This document shows, in pieces, positions 8,983 through 14,863 of a DNA stretch of 14,863 bases (position 1 is its first letter; the number at the start of each line of letters is the position of its first letter). The DNA lies in assembly GCA_905236295.1 (NCBI GenBank), contig CAJOQF010000148.1:1-14863 (forward strand), given 5' to 3'. Below the pieces are notes generated by a model, which did not search any database, was not told the DNA's origin, and was given only the letters and a program-made list of their open reading frames with translations. Made by a program: the position numbers and the translations under genes. This DNA is from an uncultured Eubacterium sp. (GTDB lineage: Bacteria > Bacillota > Clostridia > Lachnospirales > Lachnospiraceae).

Positions 8983-9048
8983 TAGTCATAGAGAAATATG
9001 ATATGAAAGATTTAAGGGATTAAATCGGTTTTGAAGGGAGGTTTGGTT

Positions 9049-11631
9049 ATGAATATTCAAAAATTTACTCAAAAGTCAATTGAAGCTATCAATGATTGCG
9101 AGAAGCTTGCTTACGATTATGGCAATCAGGAGATTGAGCAGGAACATTTGATGGTCGCTCTGCTTGAACAGGAAGAAGGTCTGATTCCAAAGCTTATAGA
9201 AAAGATGGATATAAACCTGGAACATTTTACTGATAATGCAAGATCCAAGCTTGCTGCCAGAGTCAAGGTGTCCGGCGGACAGGTTTATATGGGACAAAAT
9301 TTAAATAAGGTTCTTATATCCGCAGAGGATGAGGCAAAAAAGATGGGAGATGCCTATGTATCTGTAGAGCATATCTTCCTGACGCTTATCAAATATCCAA
9401 ACTCTGCTATCAAAGCACTGTTTAAGGAATATGGTATAAAGAGGGAGAGATTCCTCGAGGCTCTTGCTTCTGTAAGAGGCAACAAAAAGGTGACAACCGA
9501 CAATCCGGAGAGCACCTATGATGCGCTTGAAAAATTCGGATACAACATGGTGGAAAGAGCCAGAGATCAAAAGCTCGATCCGGTTATAGGAAGAGATTCC
9601 GAGATCAGAAATGTGATCAGGATCCTTAGCAGAAAGACCAAAAACAATCCGGTTCTTATCGGCGAACCGGGAGTCGGCAAGACTGCTGTAGTTGAGGGAT
9701 TGGCTCAGAGGATTGCATCCGGTGATGTGCCGGAAGATTTAAAGAACAAGAGTCTGTTTGCGCTTGATATGGGCGCAATGCTTGCCGGAGCAAAATACAG
9801 AGGCGAGTTCGAGGAAAGACTTAAAGGCGTATTGGATGAAGTAAGAGAATCCGAAGGGGAGATAATCTTATTTATAGATGAGCTTCATACAATTGTCGGA
9901 GCCGGTAAGACAGAGGGCTCTATGGATGCCGGCAATATGTTAAAACCGATGCTTGCCCGAGGTGAACTTCACTGTATCGGAGCTACTACATTGGATGAAT
10001 ACAGAGAATATGTTGAAAAGGATGCGGCTCTTGAGCGTCGTTTCCAGCCTGTACATGTCGATGAACCGACAGTTGAAGACACCATCTCCATCCTTCGAGG
10101 ACTTAAAGAAAGATATGAAGTATTCCACGGAGTAAGGATTACTGACAGCGCCCTGGTTTCGGCAGCTACATTGTCCAACAGATATATTTCGGACAGATTC
10201 CTTCCGGACAAGGCGATCGACCTGGTCGATGAAGCATGTGCTCTTATCAAGACGGAGCTTAACTCAATGCCTACTGAGCTTGATGAGATGAACAGACATC
10301 TTATGCAGATGCAGATTGAGGAAGCTGCTTTAAAAAAGGAAGATGACAGATTAAGTTTGGAGCGCCTTGAGACTCTGCAAAAGGAGATAGCAAAGCTTCA
10401 GGAGGAATTTTCATTAAAGAAGGCGGAATGGGATTCCGAAAAGAGTGAGGTCGAAAAGGTAAGGGCAATAAGGGAACAGTTGGAGGATGTCAAGAACCGT
10501 ATTACCGCAGCTCAACAAAATTACAATTTAGAGGAGGCTGCAAAGCTTCAATACGGTGAATTGCCAAAGCTTCAAAAAGAATTGGAAGAAGCCGAAGAAA
10601 AATCAAAATCCAAGGATGATTCTCTGGTTCATGAGAATGTTTCCGAGGAGGAGATCGCAAAGATCATTTCGAGATGGACAGGCATTCCGGTCGCAAAGTT
10701 AAACGAGTCAGAGAGGAATAAAGCTCTTCATCTGGACGATGAACTTCACAAGAGAGTAATCGGACAGGATGATGCGGTCACGCTTGTATCGGAGGCTATC
10801 ATCAGATCCAAGGCAGGTATAAAAGATCCATCCAAACCTATAGGTTCATTCCTGTTTTTGGGACCTACGGGTGTCGGCAAGACGGAGCTTGCCAAAGCTC
10901 TTGCTCACAGTCTGTTTGACGATGAAAACAATATGGTCAGACTTGATATGAGTGAGTATATGGAAAAGTATTCCGTATCACGACTTATCGGAGCGCCTCC
11001 GGGATATGTTGGATATGACGAGGGTGGCCAGCTTACAGAGGCTGTCAGAAGAAAACCGTATTCAGTAGTCCTTTTTGATGAGGTGGAAAAAGCTCATCCT
11101 GATGTGTTTAATGTACTGCTGCAGATCCTCGACGATGGTCGTATAACGGACTCTCAGGGACGCACAGTAGATTTTAAGAATACGATCATTATTATGACAT
11201 CAAATCTGGGATCGGCATCATTGCTTGATGGTATTACTTCCGATGGTGAGATTTCAGAGGAAGCCAGGGATTCTGTTATGGAACAGCTTAGAATGAGCTT
11301 CAGACCGGAGTTCCTTAACAGACTTGACGAGATAATAATGTTTAAGCCGCTTACAAAGAATGATATTTCAGGGATCATGGATCTGCTGGTCGCTGATCTT
11401 AACAGAAGATTAGCTGACAGAGAGGTAAGCATAGAACTTACCCCAGCTGCGTCCGATTATATAGCCTATAAAGCCTATGATCCGATGTACGGAGCAAGAC
11501 CGTTAAAGAGATATCTGCAAAAGACCGTAGAGACTTTATCCGCTAAGCTTATGCTATCCGGTGAGGTTGAAGCAGAGGACGTTATCCTTATCGATCTCGA
11601 TGGTGATAAGCTTGAAGCGAAGAGAAAATGA
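9049..11631 (+). CDS. clpB: ATP-dependent protein disaggregase ClpB
   Basis: A Hsp100 hexameric AAA+ unfoldase that pulls proteins out of aggregates together with DnaK in the cytosol. The 860-residue product has all ClpB parts in order. The double Clp N-domain covers about 1-140. The first AAA module has Walker A GEPGVGKT at 205-212 and Walker B IILFIDE at 272-278. A long coiled-coil middle domain covers about 400-530, rich in Glu/Lys/Leu heptads. The second AAA module has GPTGVGKT at 605-612 and VVLFDE at 673-678, then the LNRLDE sensor region and C-terminal domain. The long middle domain and lack of a UVR motif separate it from ClpC. The ATG at 9049 is chosen because GGGAGG sits eight bases upstream; an in-frame TTG at 9031 would place that ribosome binding site inside the gene. 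It is controlled by CIRCE/HrcA and ends in a strong terminator. Confidence 0.97.
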
Positions 11632-11645
11632 TTCATTTCGTACTA

Positions 11646-11677
11646 AAAAAAGAGGGTGGATATCCACCTTCTTTTTT
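11646..11677 (+). terminator. Strong intrinsic terminator of clpB
   Basis: The perfect palindrome GGTGGATATCCACC at 11655-11668 is extended by A/G-rich and T/C-rich flanks to about 15 base pairs and ends in a run of six T. The A run on the other side makes it bidirectional in form. It lies 15 bases after the clpB stop and only 15 bases before the next gene's start codon. Confidence 0.9.
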
Positions 11678-11701
11678 GTTATCATTAAACTTATGATAAC
11701 A
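11677..11701. repeat. 9-bp inverted repeat enclosing the VWA gene start codon
   Basis: TGTTATCAT at 11677-11685 and ATGATAACA at 11693-11701 are perfect inverted copies around a seven-base loop. The right arm begins with the ATG of the VWA gene. It could be a protein-binding operator or an RNA hairpin that hides the start codon. The first base is the last T of the clpB terminator's U tract. The A/T richness makes a chance occurrence possible, though nine perfect pairs are notable. Confidence 0.45.
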
Positions 11702-13099
11702 GAAGATAACAAAGCCAGCCTGGTTGCTACGGATATAATAAAATATGCCAGAGAACAGGTTATGATACACCTGCGTTTCCTTGACAGAGCACTGTATAAA
11801 ATGCCTGTTTTTAAGGACGATAAGACTATACTTCTGGCAACCGACGGTAAGAAAATATTCTACAACACAAAGGACGTAATATACAACTTTAAGAGAGAGC
11901 AGGCATTTATAACAAGAACCTATCTTCATATGGTTCTTCACTGTGTTTTCGCGCATCCATGGAAATACGAAGATATGGATATGGCTGTATGGGACATAGC
12001 CTGCGATCTGGCGGTGGAGAGTTCGATTCTCGGGCTTGAGATACCTTCTTTGAAACTTATAAGCGATGAGAGATTACGGATCAGGTTAAATGCACTAAAG
12101 TCACATGTCTCGGTATTTACTGCTGAAAATATATATCGCTTTTTTCTTGATAATCCGGAAGAGATCAAGTTCTGGAAGTCAAATCCGATATTGTTTTTGC
12201 GCGATTCACATGATCTGTGGATTACTGCGGTCGAAAATACAAAGGATGATAACAGTCAAAAGAATTATAATCCGAATACTCAGACAGCAACCATCGGATG
12301 TCACGAGGCAGACGGTGGGAGTGACGGAGAACAGGTTGAGGATCTTGATGAGGTCCTGCTTGGAAGGGGCGAGAGTGACTGGGATGACATAGGGCAGCGA
12401 GCTCTTACAGATATCGATACATTTTCAAACGGAAAAGGATACGGAGCCGGCGACCTTGCGATCAATATAAAAAATGTTCTCCGAAAAAAACAGGATCTCG
12501 GTTCATTTCTCAAGAAGTTTGCCGTGATGGGCGAGGAGATGCGAATAAATCCGGATGAATTTGACTATATTTACTATACTTACGGTCTGAATATCTACAA
12601 GGATATGCCACTTATTGAGCCGCTTGAGTACAGGGAGAACAAACGCATTCGCGAATTTGTCATAGCCATAGATACCTCCGGTTCTTGTCAGGGTGAGATG
12701 GTACACAGATTCTTAAGGAAGGCCTATTCCGTACTTAAAAACGAGGGAAGTTATTTCGAACAGTTCAATATTCATATAATTCAATGCGATTGCAAAATCC
12801 AGGACGACACAAAGATAACATCCGATGAAGAATTCGAGAGCTATATGGATGACGTCACCCTCAAAGGTTTTGGCGGAACTGATTTCAGACCGGTGTTTGA
12901 GCATGTCGATATGCTTATCAGGACACATGAGTTCTACAATCTTAAAGGTTTGATATATTTTACTGACGGAGAGGGAACTTTCCCGGAGACAATGCCCGAT
13001 TACAGATGCGCATTTGTATTTGTTGAGGAGGGCTTCAGGGTTCCCGAGGTTCCGGTGTGGGCGATAAGACTTGTGCTGCACGAAGATGAGGTGGCATAG
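11693..13099 (+). CDS. VWA domain protein with degenerate metallopeptidase-like domain
   Basis: A 468-residue protein resembling the DUF2201 group (putative metallopeptidase domain plus VWA-like domain). In the N-terminal part (about 15-115) the expected zinc motif HExxH reads HMVLH at 79-83, followed by His88: both histidines are kept but the catalytic Glu is Met, so peptidase activity is unlikely. The following DIACDLAVE (101-109) is also typical of this domain. Residues 115-300 are helical with an acidic, Gly-rich linker (about 200-235). The VWA domain (about 320-465) has a complete MIDAS: DTSGS at 327-331, GGTD at 394-397 and TDGEG at 424-428. No signal peptide. The ATG at 11693 is inferred because the reading frame upstream runs into the clpB terminator; there is no ribosome binding site, and an inverted repeat covers it. 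It precedes a MoxR ATPase by 60 bases; such pairs act as ATPase plus target-presenting partner. Confidence 0.8.
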   Translation: MITEDNKASLVATDIIKYAREQVMIHLRFLDRALYKMPVFKDDKTILLATDGKKIFYNTKDVIYNFKREQAFITRTYLHMVLHCVFAHPWKYEDMDMAVWDIACDLAVESSILGLEIPSLKLISDERLRIRLNALKSHVSVFTAENIYRFFLDNPEEIKFWKSNPILFLRDSHDLWITAVENTKDDNSQKNYNPNTQTATIGCHEADGGSDGEQVEDLDEVLLGRGESDWDDIGQRALTDIDTFSNGKGYGAGDLAINIKNVLRKKQDLGSFLKKFAVMGEEMRINPDEFDYIYYTYGLNIYKDMPLIEPLEYRENKRIREFVIAIDTSGSCQGEMVHRFLRKAYSVLKNEGSYFEQFNIHIIQCDCKIQDDTKITSDEEFESYMDDVTLKGFGGTDFRPVFEHVDMLIRTHEFYNLKGLIYFTDGEGTFPETMPDYRCAFVFVEEGFRVPEVPVWAIRLVLHEDEVA

Positions 13100-13159
13100 A
13101 AGTCACGTTCCGACAAGTATATACACATATAAGTGATTGACTTAGAAAGTAGGTATAAG

Positions 13160-14695
13160 ATGAACATTAACGAAGCAAAAGATCAGATAAAAAAAGCTGT
13201 AAGCATATATTTAAAAAAAGATGAATACGGAATATACCGCATTCCGCAGGAACGTCAGCGCCCTGTATTTCTTCTTGGAGCTCCCGGCATCGGTAAAACC
13301 GCGATTATTGAACAGATTGCAAAAGAGCTTGATATAGCGCTTGTGTCTTATTCAATGACCCATCATACCAGACAGAGTGCTTTGGGACTCCCTATCATTA
13401 AACATAAGAAATACGGCGATGTTGAATTTGATGTCTCGGAATATACCATGAGTGAGATAATAGCCAGTATATATGAGACTATGGAAAAGACAAAGAAGAC
13501 AGAGGGAATCCTGTTTTTGGATGAGATAAACTGTGTTTCGGAGACGCTTGCCCCGTCCATGTTGCTGTTCTTGCAGTACAAGATGTTTGGAAAACACAAG
13601 GTTCCGGAGGGATGGATAGTAGTTACCGCCGGAAATCCTCCTCAGTTTAACCGTTCTGTGCGGGAATTTGATATCGTTACAATGGACAGACTCAAGGTAC
13701 TGGAGGTTGATGCGGATTACGAGACATGGAGAGCATATGCCGTAAACAACAGTTTCCACACAGCGGTAATCACTTATCTGGATATAAAGACCAAGGATTT
13801 CTATTCAATAGAAAACACTGTGGACGGGAAATCTTATGTTACCGCAAGAGGATGGGAGAATTTATCCGAAACTCTTTTCCTATATGAGGAGATGTTATAT
13901 AAGGTGGATGAAACGCTTGTAGCCCAATATCTCAGAAACCAGAGGATTGCCAGAGATTTTTCAGCTTATTACGATCTGTTTATCAAGTATAAACAGGATT
14001 ACAAGGTCAGCGCAATCCTTACCGGAAAACCGGAGAGAGAGATCATAAAGATGGCAAAAGAAGCAGGATTTGACGAGAGACTTTCTCTCATGGGACTTCT
14101 TCTTGAGGCAATTCAGAACAATATTCATGAATGCGTTGCAAAAGAGGATGAGTTAAAGCTGCTTCATAAACATTTAAAGCATGTCAAGGAACTCTTTAGT
14201 GGAAGTCTGTCAATGGAAAACTGTGTCGAACTTCTTGAGCATGAGGCTATGTTGCTTACAAATGAGATGAATGAAAAAGACATCGCAAATTCTCTTTCAA
14301 CTGCTGATGAGCATTCATACATTGCAGTGATAAGAAGTATCAGGGACTTCGCCAACAGAATAAAATTGCAGCGTGTAGTCGATTCAAATGCCGCTTTTGA
14401 TCTTATCAAGAGTATATTTGATGCTGATGTTGCAAAGATGCGTGAAAACAACAGACAGACATCCTTAAAGCTTTCGAATCTCTTTGACTTTGTTGAAAAT
14501 GTCTTTAAAGAGGAGAGCGAGATGCTTATTCTGGTTACGGATCTTACAATTAATAAAGATACGGCACGTTTTATAAGTGCAAACGGATGTGACAAATACT
14601 TTAAGTACAATAAAAAATTTCAGCTCTATGAGAGAGGCAATAAGATATTGGAAGACATAAAGAATCTCGAGGCTGATGAATTGACATTTAACTGA
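13160..14695 (+). CDS. MoxR-like AAA+ ATPase
   Basis: A 511-residue ATPase of the MoxR/dynein-related AAA group, cytosolic, predicted to remodel a protein target with the neighbouring VWA protein. Walker A GAPGIGKT is at 40-47 and Walker B ILFLDE at 117-122. Sensor 1 Asn159 lies in TAGNPPQ, and a candidate arginine finger, Arg177, in MDRLK. The NPPQFNRSVREFD stretch is the usual MoxR segment between sensor 1 and the finger. About 300 residues after the ATPase core (200-511) are mostly helical, rich in Lys/Glu/Leu, and match nothing I recognise; they are longer than in a minimal MoxR (around 320-350 residues in all). The start ATG at 13160 follows AAAGTAGG; a GTG at 13133 lies in frame but has no ribosome binding site. 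The stop is one base before the next ATG, which implies translational coupling. Confidence 0.85.
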   Translation: MNINEAKDQIKKAVSIYLKKDEYGIYRIPQERQRPVFLLGAPGIGKTAIIEQIAKELDIALVSYSMTHHTRQSALGLPIIKHKKYGDVEFDVSEYTMSEIIASIYETMEKTKKTEGILFLDEINCVSETLAPSMLLFLQYKMFGKHKVPEGWIVVTAGNPPQFNRSVREFDIVTMDRLKVLEVDADYETWRAYAVNNSFHTAVITYLDIKTKDFYSIENTVDGKSYVTARGWENLSETLFLYEEMLYKVDETLVAQYLRNQRIARDFSAYYDLFIKYKQDYKVSAILTGKPEREIIKMAKEAGFDERLSLMGLLLEAIQNNIHECVAKEDELKLLHKHLKHVKELFSGSLSMENCVELLEHEAMLLTNEMNEKDIANSLSTADEHSYIAVIRSIRDFANRIKLQRVVDSNAAFDLIKSIFDADVAKMRENNRQTSLKLSNLFDFVENVFKEESEMLILVTDLTINKDTARFISANGCDKYFKYNKKFQLYERGNKILEDIKNLEADELTFN

Positions 14696-14696
14696 T

Positions 14697-14863
14697 ATGG
14701 AATTATTTAAATACTCTGTAATTAACGGTGAAATCAGAATAGATGAATATATAGGTGATGAGAGTATATCGGAGTTGATCATACCCGAGACCATTGCCGG
14801 GCTCCCTGTTACCAGTATAGGTGTATCCGCTTTTTCTGAAAACGGGGGAAGCCTTGAGAAAAT
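14697..14863 (+). CDS. BspA-like leucine-rich-repeat protein, N-terminal part only
   Basis: The first 55 codons of a gene that runs off the window. The product starts MELFKYSVINGEIRI, and residues about 27-55 match the LRR_5 (BspA/TpLRR) repeat pattern: LIIPETIAGLPVTSIG, then SAFSENGGSLEK. Such repeats form curved solenoids that bind proteins. No signal peptide is visible in the first 20 residues, so this one appears cytosolic, unlike many surface BspA proteins. Its ATG is one base after the MoxR stop with no strong ribosome binding site, so it is probably translated by coupling. The total length and any further domains cannot be seen. Confidence 0.75.
   Translation, partial: MELFKYSVINGEIRIDEYIGDESISELIIPETIAGLPVTSIGVSAFSENGGSLEK

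Follow-up and report, generated by a model that had tools for sequence, protein, structure and literature searches.

MoxR-type AAA+ ATPases that are paired with a VWA-domain protein are widespread, and few of the partners of these pairs are known. In the NorQD system, a finger of the VWA protein enters the pore of the MoxR-type ATPase, and acidic target residues have been proposed as ligands of the metal ion-dependent adhesion site (MIDAS); the N-terminal domain of NorD is described, in the available text of these papers, as having no obvious homology (PMC13036017, PMC9976466). For the MoxR-vWA ternary systems, the parts of the literature at hand name VMAP, iSTAND, FtsH, a beta-propeller and later iSTAND2 and TERNS3 as third components (PMC7159879, PMC8195603), and in PMC7159879 the term 'leucine-rich' is absent while 'LRR' appears once, in a reference on another protein. 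Jumbo phages encode a pair of a metallopeptidase-vWA fusion protein and MoxR, for which peptidolytic processing was proposed in the portion of the source available (PMC7824862). Here we describe a locus in an uncultured Eubacterium sp. of the Lachnospiraceae, located in a stretch of 14,863 bp referred to as the window, in which the genes for a VWA protein and a MoxR-type ATPase are followed by a gene for a leucine-rich repeat (LRR) protein of the BspA type. Based on the present data, these proteins probably constitute a three-subunit, ATP-driven remodelling machine in which MoxR and VWA are joined by a dedicated LRR adaptor, the tail of which serves for docking. This is important because a third subunit is pinned here by several separate genomic lines in a major gut family, and because the short C-terminal tag of this protein is a directly testable handle on what the pair acts upon.

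The three genes are all located on the forward strand. The VWA gene (11693..13099) encodes a protein of 468 aa with an N-terminal pseudo-metallopeptidase domain, DUF2201_N (29.7 bits, Pfam cut-off 23.2), followed by the VWA domain DUF2201 (55.3 bits, cut-off 26.4), and with both domains passing their cut-offs the protein is a member of the DUF2201 family (PF13203 and PF09967). The MoxR-type AAA+ ATPase (13160..14695; 511 aa from the ATG at 13160) matches the Pfam models AAA (35.8 bits) and AAA_5 (28.5 bits) above cut-off and is up to 67% identical to its homologues. Its Walker A motif GAPGIGKT (13277..13300; G40, P42, G43, I44, G45, K46 and T47) and its Walker B motif ILFLDE (13508..13525) are invariant in 19 aligned rows. 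The C-terminus of this protein, which an earlier note on this sequence had called unusually long, is indeed long, but it is common to the 19 aligned homologues and hence usual for the family. No NCBIfam model matched the VWA or MoxR protein of the window above cut-off. The stop codon of the VWA gene is separated by 60 bases from the MoxR ATG, and the MoxR stop codon by 1 base from the ATG of the third gene at 14697, so the tight spacing that had been claimed is real. Only the 5' end of this third gene, 55 codons, is visible (14697..14863) because the window is an entire contig (G000:C148, in a genome of 387 contigs with completeness 79.87) and ends inside the gene. A search with the tail of the third protein located the remainder on contig C151 (locus L262, bases 2-1318), the first open reading frame (ORF) of which is open at its 5' end and terminates in FDFSL. 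The end of the window and this ORF share an exact, in-frame overlap of 12 bases, and on three relatives the pieces adjoin each other (L115, residues 4-56 then 54-442; L112, 29-78 then 76-512; L117, 5-54 then 52-400). The complete protein would have about 490 aa, much like the third protein of congener G002 with its 488 aa. The assignment of this gene to the BspA-type repeat proteins was invisible to Pfam in the piece of 55 aa, for which no match was obtained, and was borne out by the C151 piece, which matches LRR_5 (PF13306) at 129 bits, above cut-off.

We surveyed 299 genomes of the window's family (298 genera) for MoxR at a threshold of E<=1e-60 and found it in 158 of them, that is, in 157 of the 298 genera. 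In a class-level sample MoxR was present in 9 of 196 genomes, 4 of which are outside the family. From the 150 rows listed of the MoxR search (at least 150 matches), leaving out that of the window itself and nine of low rank, we drew 140 MoxR regions from 129 genomes (nearly one per genus, with 11 genomes giving two regions). A second set, the named loci, rests on the best 80 named MoxR relatives; these are mostly Lachnospiraceae, plus Oscillospiraceae and others, and the close relatives P0059 and P0168 are labelled Eubacterium oxidoreducens. Hidden Markov models (HMMs) for the LRR part and the 75 C-terminal residues of the third protein, built from the named loci, were run on all ORFs in the 140 regions, 138 of which have a VWA match. 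The third gene adjoins the pair in 122 of the 140 loci and is co-directional every time, which upholds the three-part module proposed in the earlier note. It lies after MoxR in 37 loci (median gap 11 nt) and elsewhere in 85, nearly all of these being before the VWA gene (median gap 58 nt for 83 genes, measured to the VWA start given by tblastn); the 'upstream' class is loose for L136 (LRR–MoxR–VWA) and L230 (VWA–LRR–MoxR). The LRR part was matched in 115 loci, and 7 loci were matched by the C-terminal domain alone, including L153 and L236, which are merely cut by the region edge and have full ORFs of 335 and 352 aa, and hence are not LRR-less. Among the 80 named loci, 73 have an ORF of at least 100 aa that starts close after the MoxR stop codon, and 64 of these 73 match LRR_5. 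In the 1,147 kb of these loci, 66 LRR ORFs are located directly after MoxR as compared to 31 others, many of which surround the same pairs.

The orders VWA–MoxR–LRR and LRR–VWA–MoxR separate at a deep branch in a quick tree of 141 MoxR proteins (SH-aLRT 99). The clade that includes the window has 48 rows, with the third gene after MoxR in 38, in another position in 4 and absent from the neighbourhood in 6. In the other clade (93 rows) it precedes the pair in 81 and is lacking in 12, and it never follows MoxR. Taken strictly, the arrangement with the LRR gene behind the pair prevails only in the deep clade of the window; elsewhere the gene precedes it. The further order VWA–LRR–MoxR was found at one locus outside the family (L305) and one inside (L230). 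This association is kept through changes of order, which speaks against a neighbour that is there by chance. Among the 18 loci that lack an HMM match, a tail gene was recognised by eye in L205 and L241, and L209, L249 and L234 have the third gene upstream, beyond the region edge (G132:C55, G100:C14, G022:C12). For L137, L131, L156 and L158, L181, L222, L233, L201 and L176 it is found elsewhere in the genome, near a contig end for L176 and beside a VWA gene on the same contig for L201, while L196 is cut by a contig end. A third gene away from the pair, where none adjoins it, was seen for example in G216, G059, G071, G260, G137 and G129. At the loci L303, L304 and L307, outside the family, no third gene was present within the 1.5 kb examined.

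What stays constant in the third protein is its helical C-terminal domain, which ends in F-x-L-COOH. A C-terminus of the form Phi-x-Phi-COOH was present in 109 of 118 complete third proteins and in 76 of 648 control ORFs, and the stricter form [FY][DESVTAN][LF]-COOH in 74 and 4 of these, respectively; the controls were stop-to-stop ORFs of at least 250 aa, some of which surely are not genes, and L136 and L140 are omitted from the count, as are two third genes that are truncated by a contig end. When two models of the tail domain (A4, E<=1e-3; A5, E<=1e-2) were run on the 299 family genomes, the domain was found in 141 of the 158 genomes with MoxR and in 1 of the 141 without it (Fisher p-value = 1.7e-64 with genera taken as independent, which they are not fully). 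The sole exception, G139, is a decayed triad: in one ORF the tail domain is joined to most of the VWA protein, and of MoxR only a short C-terminal stretch remains. The LRR part evolves fastest, with a median identity of 37% as compared to 41% for the last 175 aa, 54% for VWA and 64% for MoxR (496 pairs, 32 loci); in 60 close pairs the respective medians are 53%, 68%, 73% and 78%. The structure model of the third protein (pLDDT 92.6, pTM 0.86) consists of the LRR followed by an alpha domain, the last residues having values of about 63. A Foldseek search with this model returned LRR proteins alone at E<=0.001, and in the third proteins of L262, L050 and L036 the C-terminal domain had no Pfam match, LRR_5 being the sole domain above cut-off. 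We claim no fold for this domain or for DUF2201_N, since the VIA-align matches shown are taken up by the LRR and VWA parts. An N-terminal export signal is typical of BspA surface proteins. Only 3 of 120 third proteins contain a 19-residue stretch above 1.6 on the Kyte-Doolittle scale, none of them within the first 45 residues, and the window piece reaches 1.43 at most.

Some variants of the locus were also observed. The 578-aa LRR protein upstream of MoxR at L136 (G209:C1) begins with a P-loop-like stretch, GxxGSGKTT, which looks like an NTPase fused to the LRR. At L080, L087, L104 and L085 the pair is surrounded by arrays of several LRR genes, some of which lack the end-tag. Ankyrin-repeat models match 2 of the 73 genes after MoxR in the named loci (by sequence probably L081 and L083), with an altered end-tag. 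At L055 and L060 a prolipoprotein diacylglyceryl transferase gene lies between the MoxR and LRR genes.

The LRR part can be lost. In five loci (L180, L200, L225, L229 and L245) the third protein consists of the C-terminal domain with its tag and has 102-143 aa, and inspection of L205 by eye revealed an LRR-less third protein of 165 aa. L200, L225, L229, L245 and L205 form one clade, L180 being separate. In seven genera the VWA protein carries the tail domain fused to its front (G109, where the ORF is cut by the contig start, G243, G077, G136, G187, G276 and G121), and in G245 the tail, VWA and most of MoxR form one ORF of 935 aa. Such gene fusions are classical evidence that two proteins act in one complex. 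The fused rows adjoin the LRR-less clade, and on the tree a single change accounts for the fused MoxR rows, with a branch support of only 19 and with G187 absent from the tree. Fused proteins of 425-440 aa occur in other assemblies as well, of which P0247 and P0249 share 73% and 55% identity with the G121 protein in its first 150 residues. By eye, no F-x-L was seen at the old domain end in the fused proteins, and the His triad of the VWA protein was not found by pattern in 2 of 9 fused ORFs (G136 and G121). As to the triple fusion (L280, G245:C17), its MoxR match begins at residue 89, so that the P-loop part may be missing, and the genome contains another MoxR/VWA locus.

The VWA protein contains the motif HMVLHCVFAH (11927..11956), in which His79, His83 and His88 are kept and the catalytic Glu is replaced by Met80. 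In an alignment of 205 VWA proteins from the window, the regions and the named loci, 204 rows have letters at these positions; all three His are present in 204 of 204 and Glu at position 80 in none, while Asp105 is found in 201 and Glu109 in 199. The zinc-peptidase motif (HMVLH, 11927-11941) is therefore dead, as the earlier note had stated. Among distant bacterial members of DUF2201_N, HExxH is kept in seven of the eight that were read (L017, L018, L253, L256, L257, L260 and L261, but not L254; L252, L255 and L258, on the minus strand, are left out of this count), and it is also retained in the VWA-like protein of Synechococcus phage MinM2 (L311). Since most distant members retain HExxH, the loss of Glu goes with the lineage studied here. 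The MIDAS is conserved throughout: D327 and S329 of the DxSxS motif (12671..12685) are found in 205 of 205 rows and S331 in 204, Thr396 (12878..12880) in 204 and Asp425 (12965..12967) in 205. The structure model of this protein has a mean pLDDT of 73 and a pTM of 0.59, and a whole-protein comparison confirmed the VWA domain by its fold; no PDB relative was found by sequence. The family phrog_1314, which is labelled 'HNH endonuclease' in PHROGs, matches the VWA protein over almost its entire length (window 11693-13096). This label is probably a naming error, an HNH gene being located near the phage VWA gene in L311.

By analogy with NorQ/NorD, MoxR would form an AAA+ ring and the VWA protein would serve as its co-chaperone, with MoxR pulling on or twisting the VWA protein. 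The third protein would be the dedicated adaptor of this complex: its fast-evolving LRR solenoid may recognise the target to be remodelled, and the helical domain at the C-terminus of the protein, with F-x-L-COOH as exposed end-tag, may dock directly on the VWA protein, the front domain of which would be a peptidase turned binding module. The role of the LRR protein had been suggested to be that of a client, an adaptor or a sensor. We favour an adaptor or subunit over a client because the C-terminal domain is retained where the LRR is lost and has become part of the VWA protein in several genera. A more specific and rather doubtful version of this docking is that the dead DUF2201_N, with its three-His site kept and Glu lost, and the MIDAS of the VWA domain read the LRR adaptor's free C-terminal end, F-x-L-COO-. 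If so, an interchangeable solenoid could be plugged into a MoxR motor via a C-terminal tag. Where the tail domain is fused to VWA this tag is gone, and the His triad was likewise not found in two of the nine fused ORFs (G136 and G121).

Several observations weigh against a dedicated, tag-docked adaptor. Nine of the 118 C-termini of third proteins do not match Phi-x-Phi, and a simple acidic ligand for the MIDAS is not conserved because the penultimate residue need not be acidic (FSL, FVL). Among the 158 genomes with MoxR, 17 have no tail match, six of which have an LRR third gene (G024, G099, G208, G211, G224 and G266). Moreover, the sensitivity in these genomes is inflated because the rows of model A5 come from 41 of the same loci, which leaves the near absence of the domain from genomes without MoxR unaffected. 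L145, L150 and L238 (G198, G308 and G225) have the pair, with no adjacent third gene and no tail match in the genome. Finally, tail proteins apart from the pair (for example L264, L268, L270 and L271), in part additional copies, are found in some genomes, which would also fit several clients. Indeed, the LRR protein could be a dedicated client that is folded, activated or assembled by MoxR/VWA, with the tail as the chaperone's grip. Its gene linkage is like that of NorQD and its target, as far as the available accounts of that system go. In addition to this, C-terminal tags are common handles of AAA+ proteins. A client would nonetheless be unlikely to shrink to its handle or to join its chaperone, as the LRR-less and VWA-fused forms would imply, and we consider this explanation a minority possibility, albeit a serious one.

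The triad could also be a conflict system, serving immunity or self-killing, of the MoxR-vWA ternary kind, in which an LRR sensor replaces VMAP or iSTAND. The core pair is identical in kind, and in the available text on these systems the third component is what defines each subtype (PMC7159879, PMC8195603); that the LRR part is the fastest-evolving one fits a sensor of this type. However, no effector-like domain was found above cut-off in the VWA protein of the window or in the third proteins of L262, L050 and L036. Among the 73 genes after MoxR in the named loci, in which LRR_5 predominates, a few single genes have other domains (for example DUF4132 and a YhcG nuclease), and nSTAND models matched one of the 73, weakly, both statements referring to the 25 of 32 families listed. 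A PADLOC scan of the window proteins matched MoxR weakly to AAA proteins (best IetA, 5.9e-6) and gave no match for the VWA protein or the 55-aa piece. Furthermore, the gene order is inherited along the MoxR tree. Taken together, we regard a conflict system as improbable.

An active protease, in which DUF2201_N cleaves the LRR tail or other targets and MoxR feeds the substrate, is very improbable. A metal may still bind, because His79, His83, His88, Asp105 and Glu109 are kept, but the Glu of HExxH is missing in every one of the 204 rows, whereas most of the distant bacterial members and the phage member retain it. That an LRR_5 gene merely happens to sit here, such genes being common (matches in 12 of 13 genomes searched), has practically no likelihood left, as it is already contradicted by the adjacency in 122 of 140 loci, the two main orders, the conserved tail, the co-occurrence with MoxR and the concentration of LRR ORFs directly after MoxR.

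Directly upstream of the triad the window contains clpB (9031-11631; NCBIfam TIGR03346 above cut-off), and ClpB adjoins the triad at L219 as well. ClpB was rejected as a fourth member: a ClpB-like match was found in 1 of 220 other loci, and a terminator-like hairpin on the forward strand (11646..11677; a stem of 14 pairs followed by a T-rich stretch) separates clpB from the VWA gene. Terminator-like sites in the region number 6, with 2.3 expected.

Compared with known BspA-type LRR proteins (PF13306; TpLRR, 6mlx; BACCAP_00569, 4oju), the third protein differs in lacking the hydrophobic N-terminal stretch, in having a conserved helical C-terminal domain and in being clustered with MoxR/VWA. With NorQ/NorD (PMC13036017, PMC9976466), CbbQ/CbbO and RavA/ViaA the present locus would share the MoxR ring, the vWA partner with its MIDAS and the remodelling of a target; a constant LRR third subunit is present here and is not mentioned in the available descriptions of those systems. 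The jumbo-phage pair has the same two-protein layout of a metallopeptidase-vWA protein and MoxR, but the accessible part of that source (PMC7824862) mentions no third LRR protein. The MinM2 protein that we checked, which is not among the examples named in that text, keeps HExxH, and Glu has been lost in the present lineage. Like the MoxR-vWA ternary systems, as presented in the sections available, the locus combines a MoxR AAA+ protein with Walker motifs, a clustered vWA partner with a MIDAS and one conserved third protein. It differs from them in that the vWA protein carries a dead DUF2201_N, that effector domains were not seen in the window's proteins, and that the hosts are mostly Lachnospiraceae and some other Clostridia, as opposed to the multicellular groups stressed for the ternary systems in the same sections. 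Its third protein combines LRR_5 with a helical domain that bears F-x-L-COOH. No paper on a MoxR–VWA–LRR triad was found in the literature searched, and because the described subtypes have other third components, we regard the triad as a new form within the MoxR-vWA kind: the pair belongs to that broad kind, and the LRR third component with its F-x-L tail is what is new.

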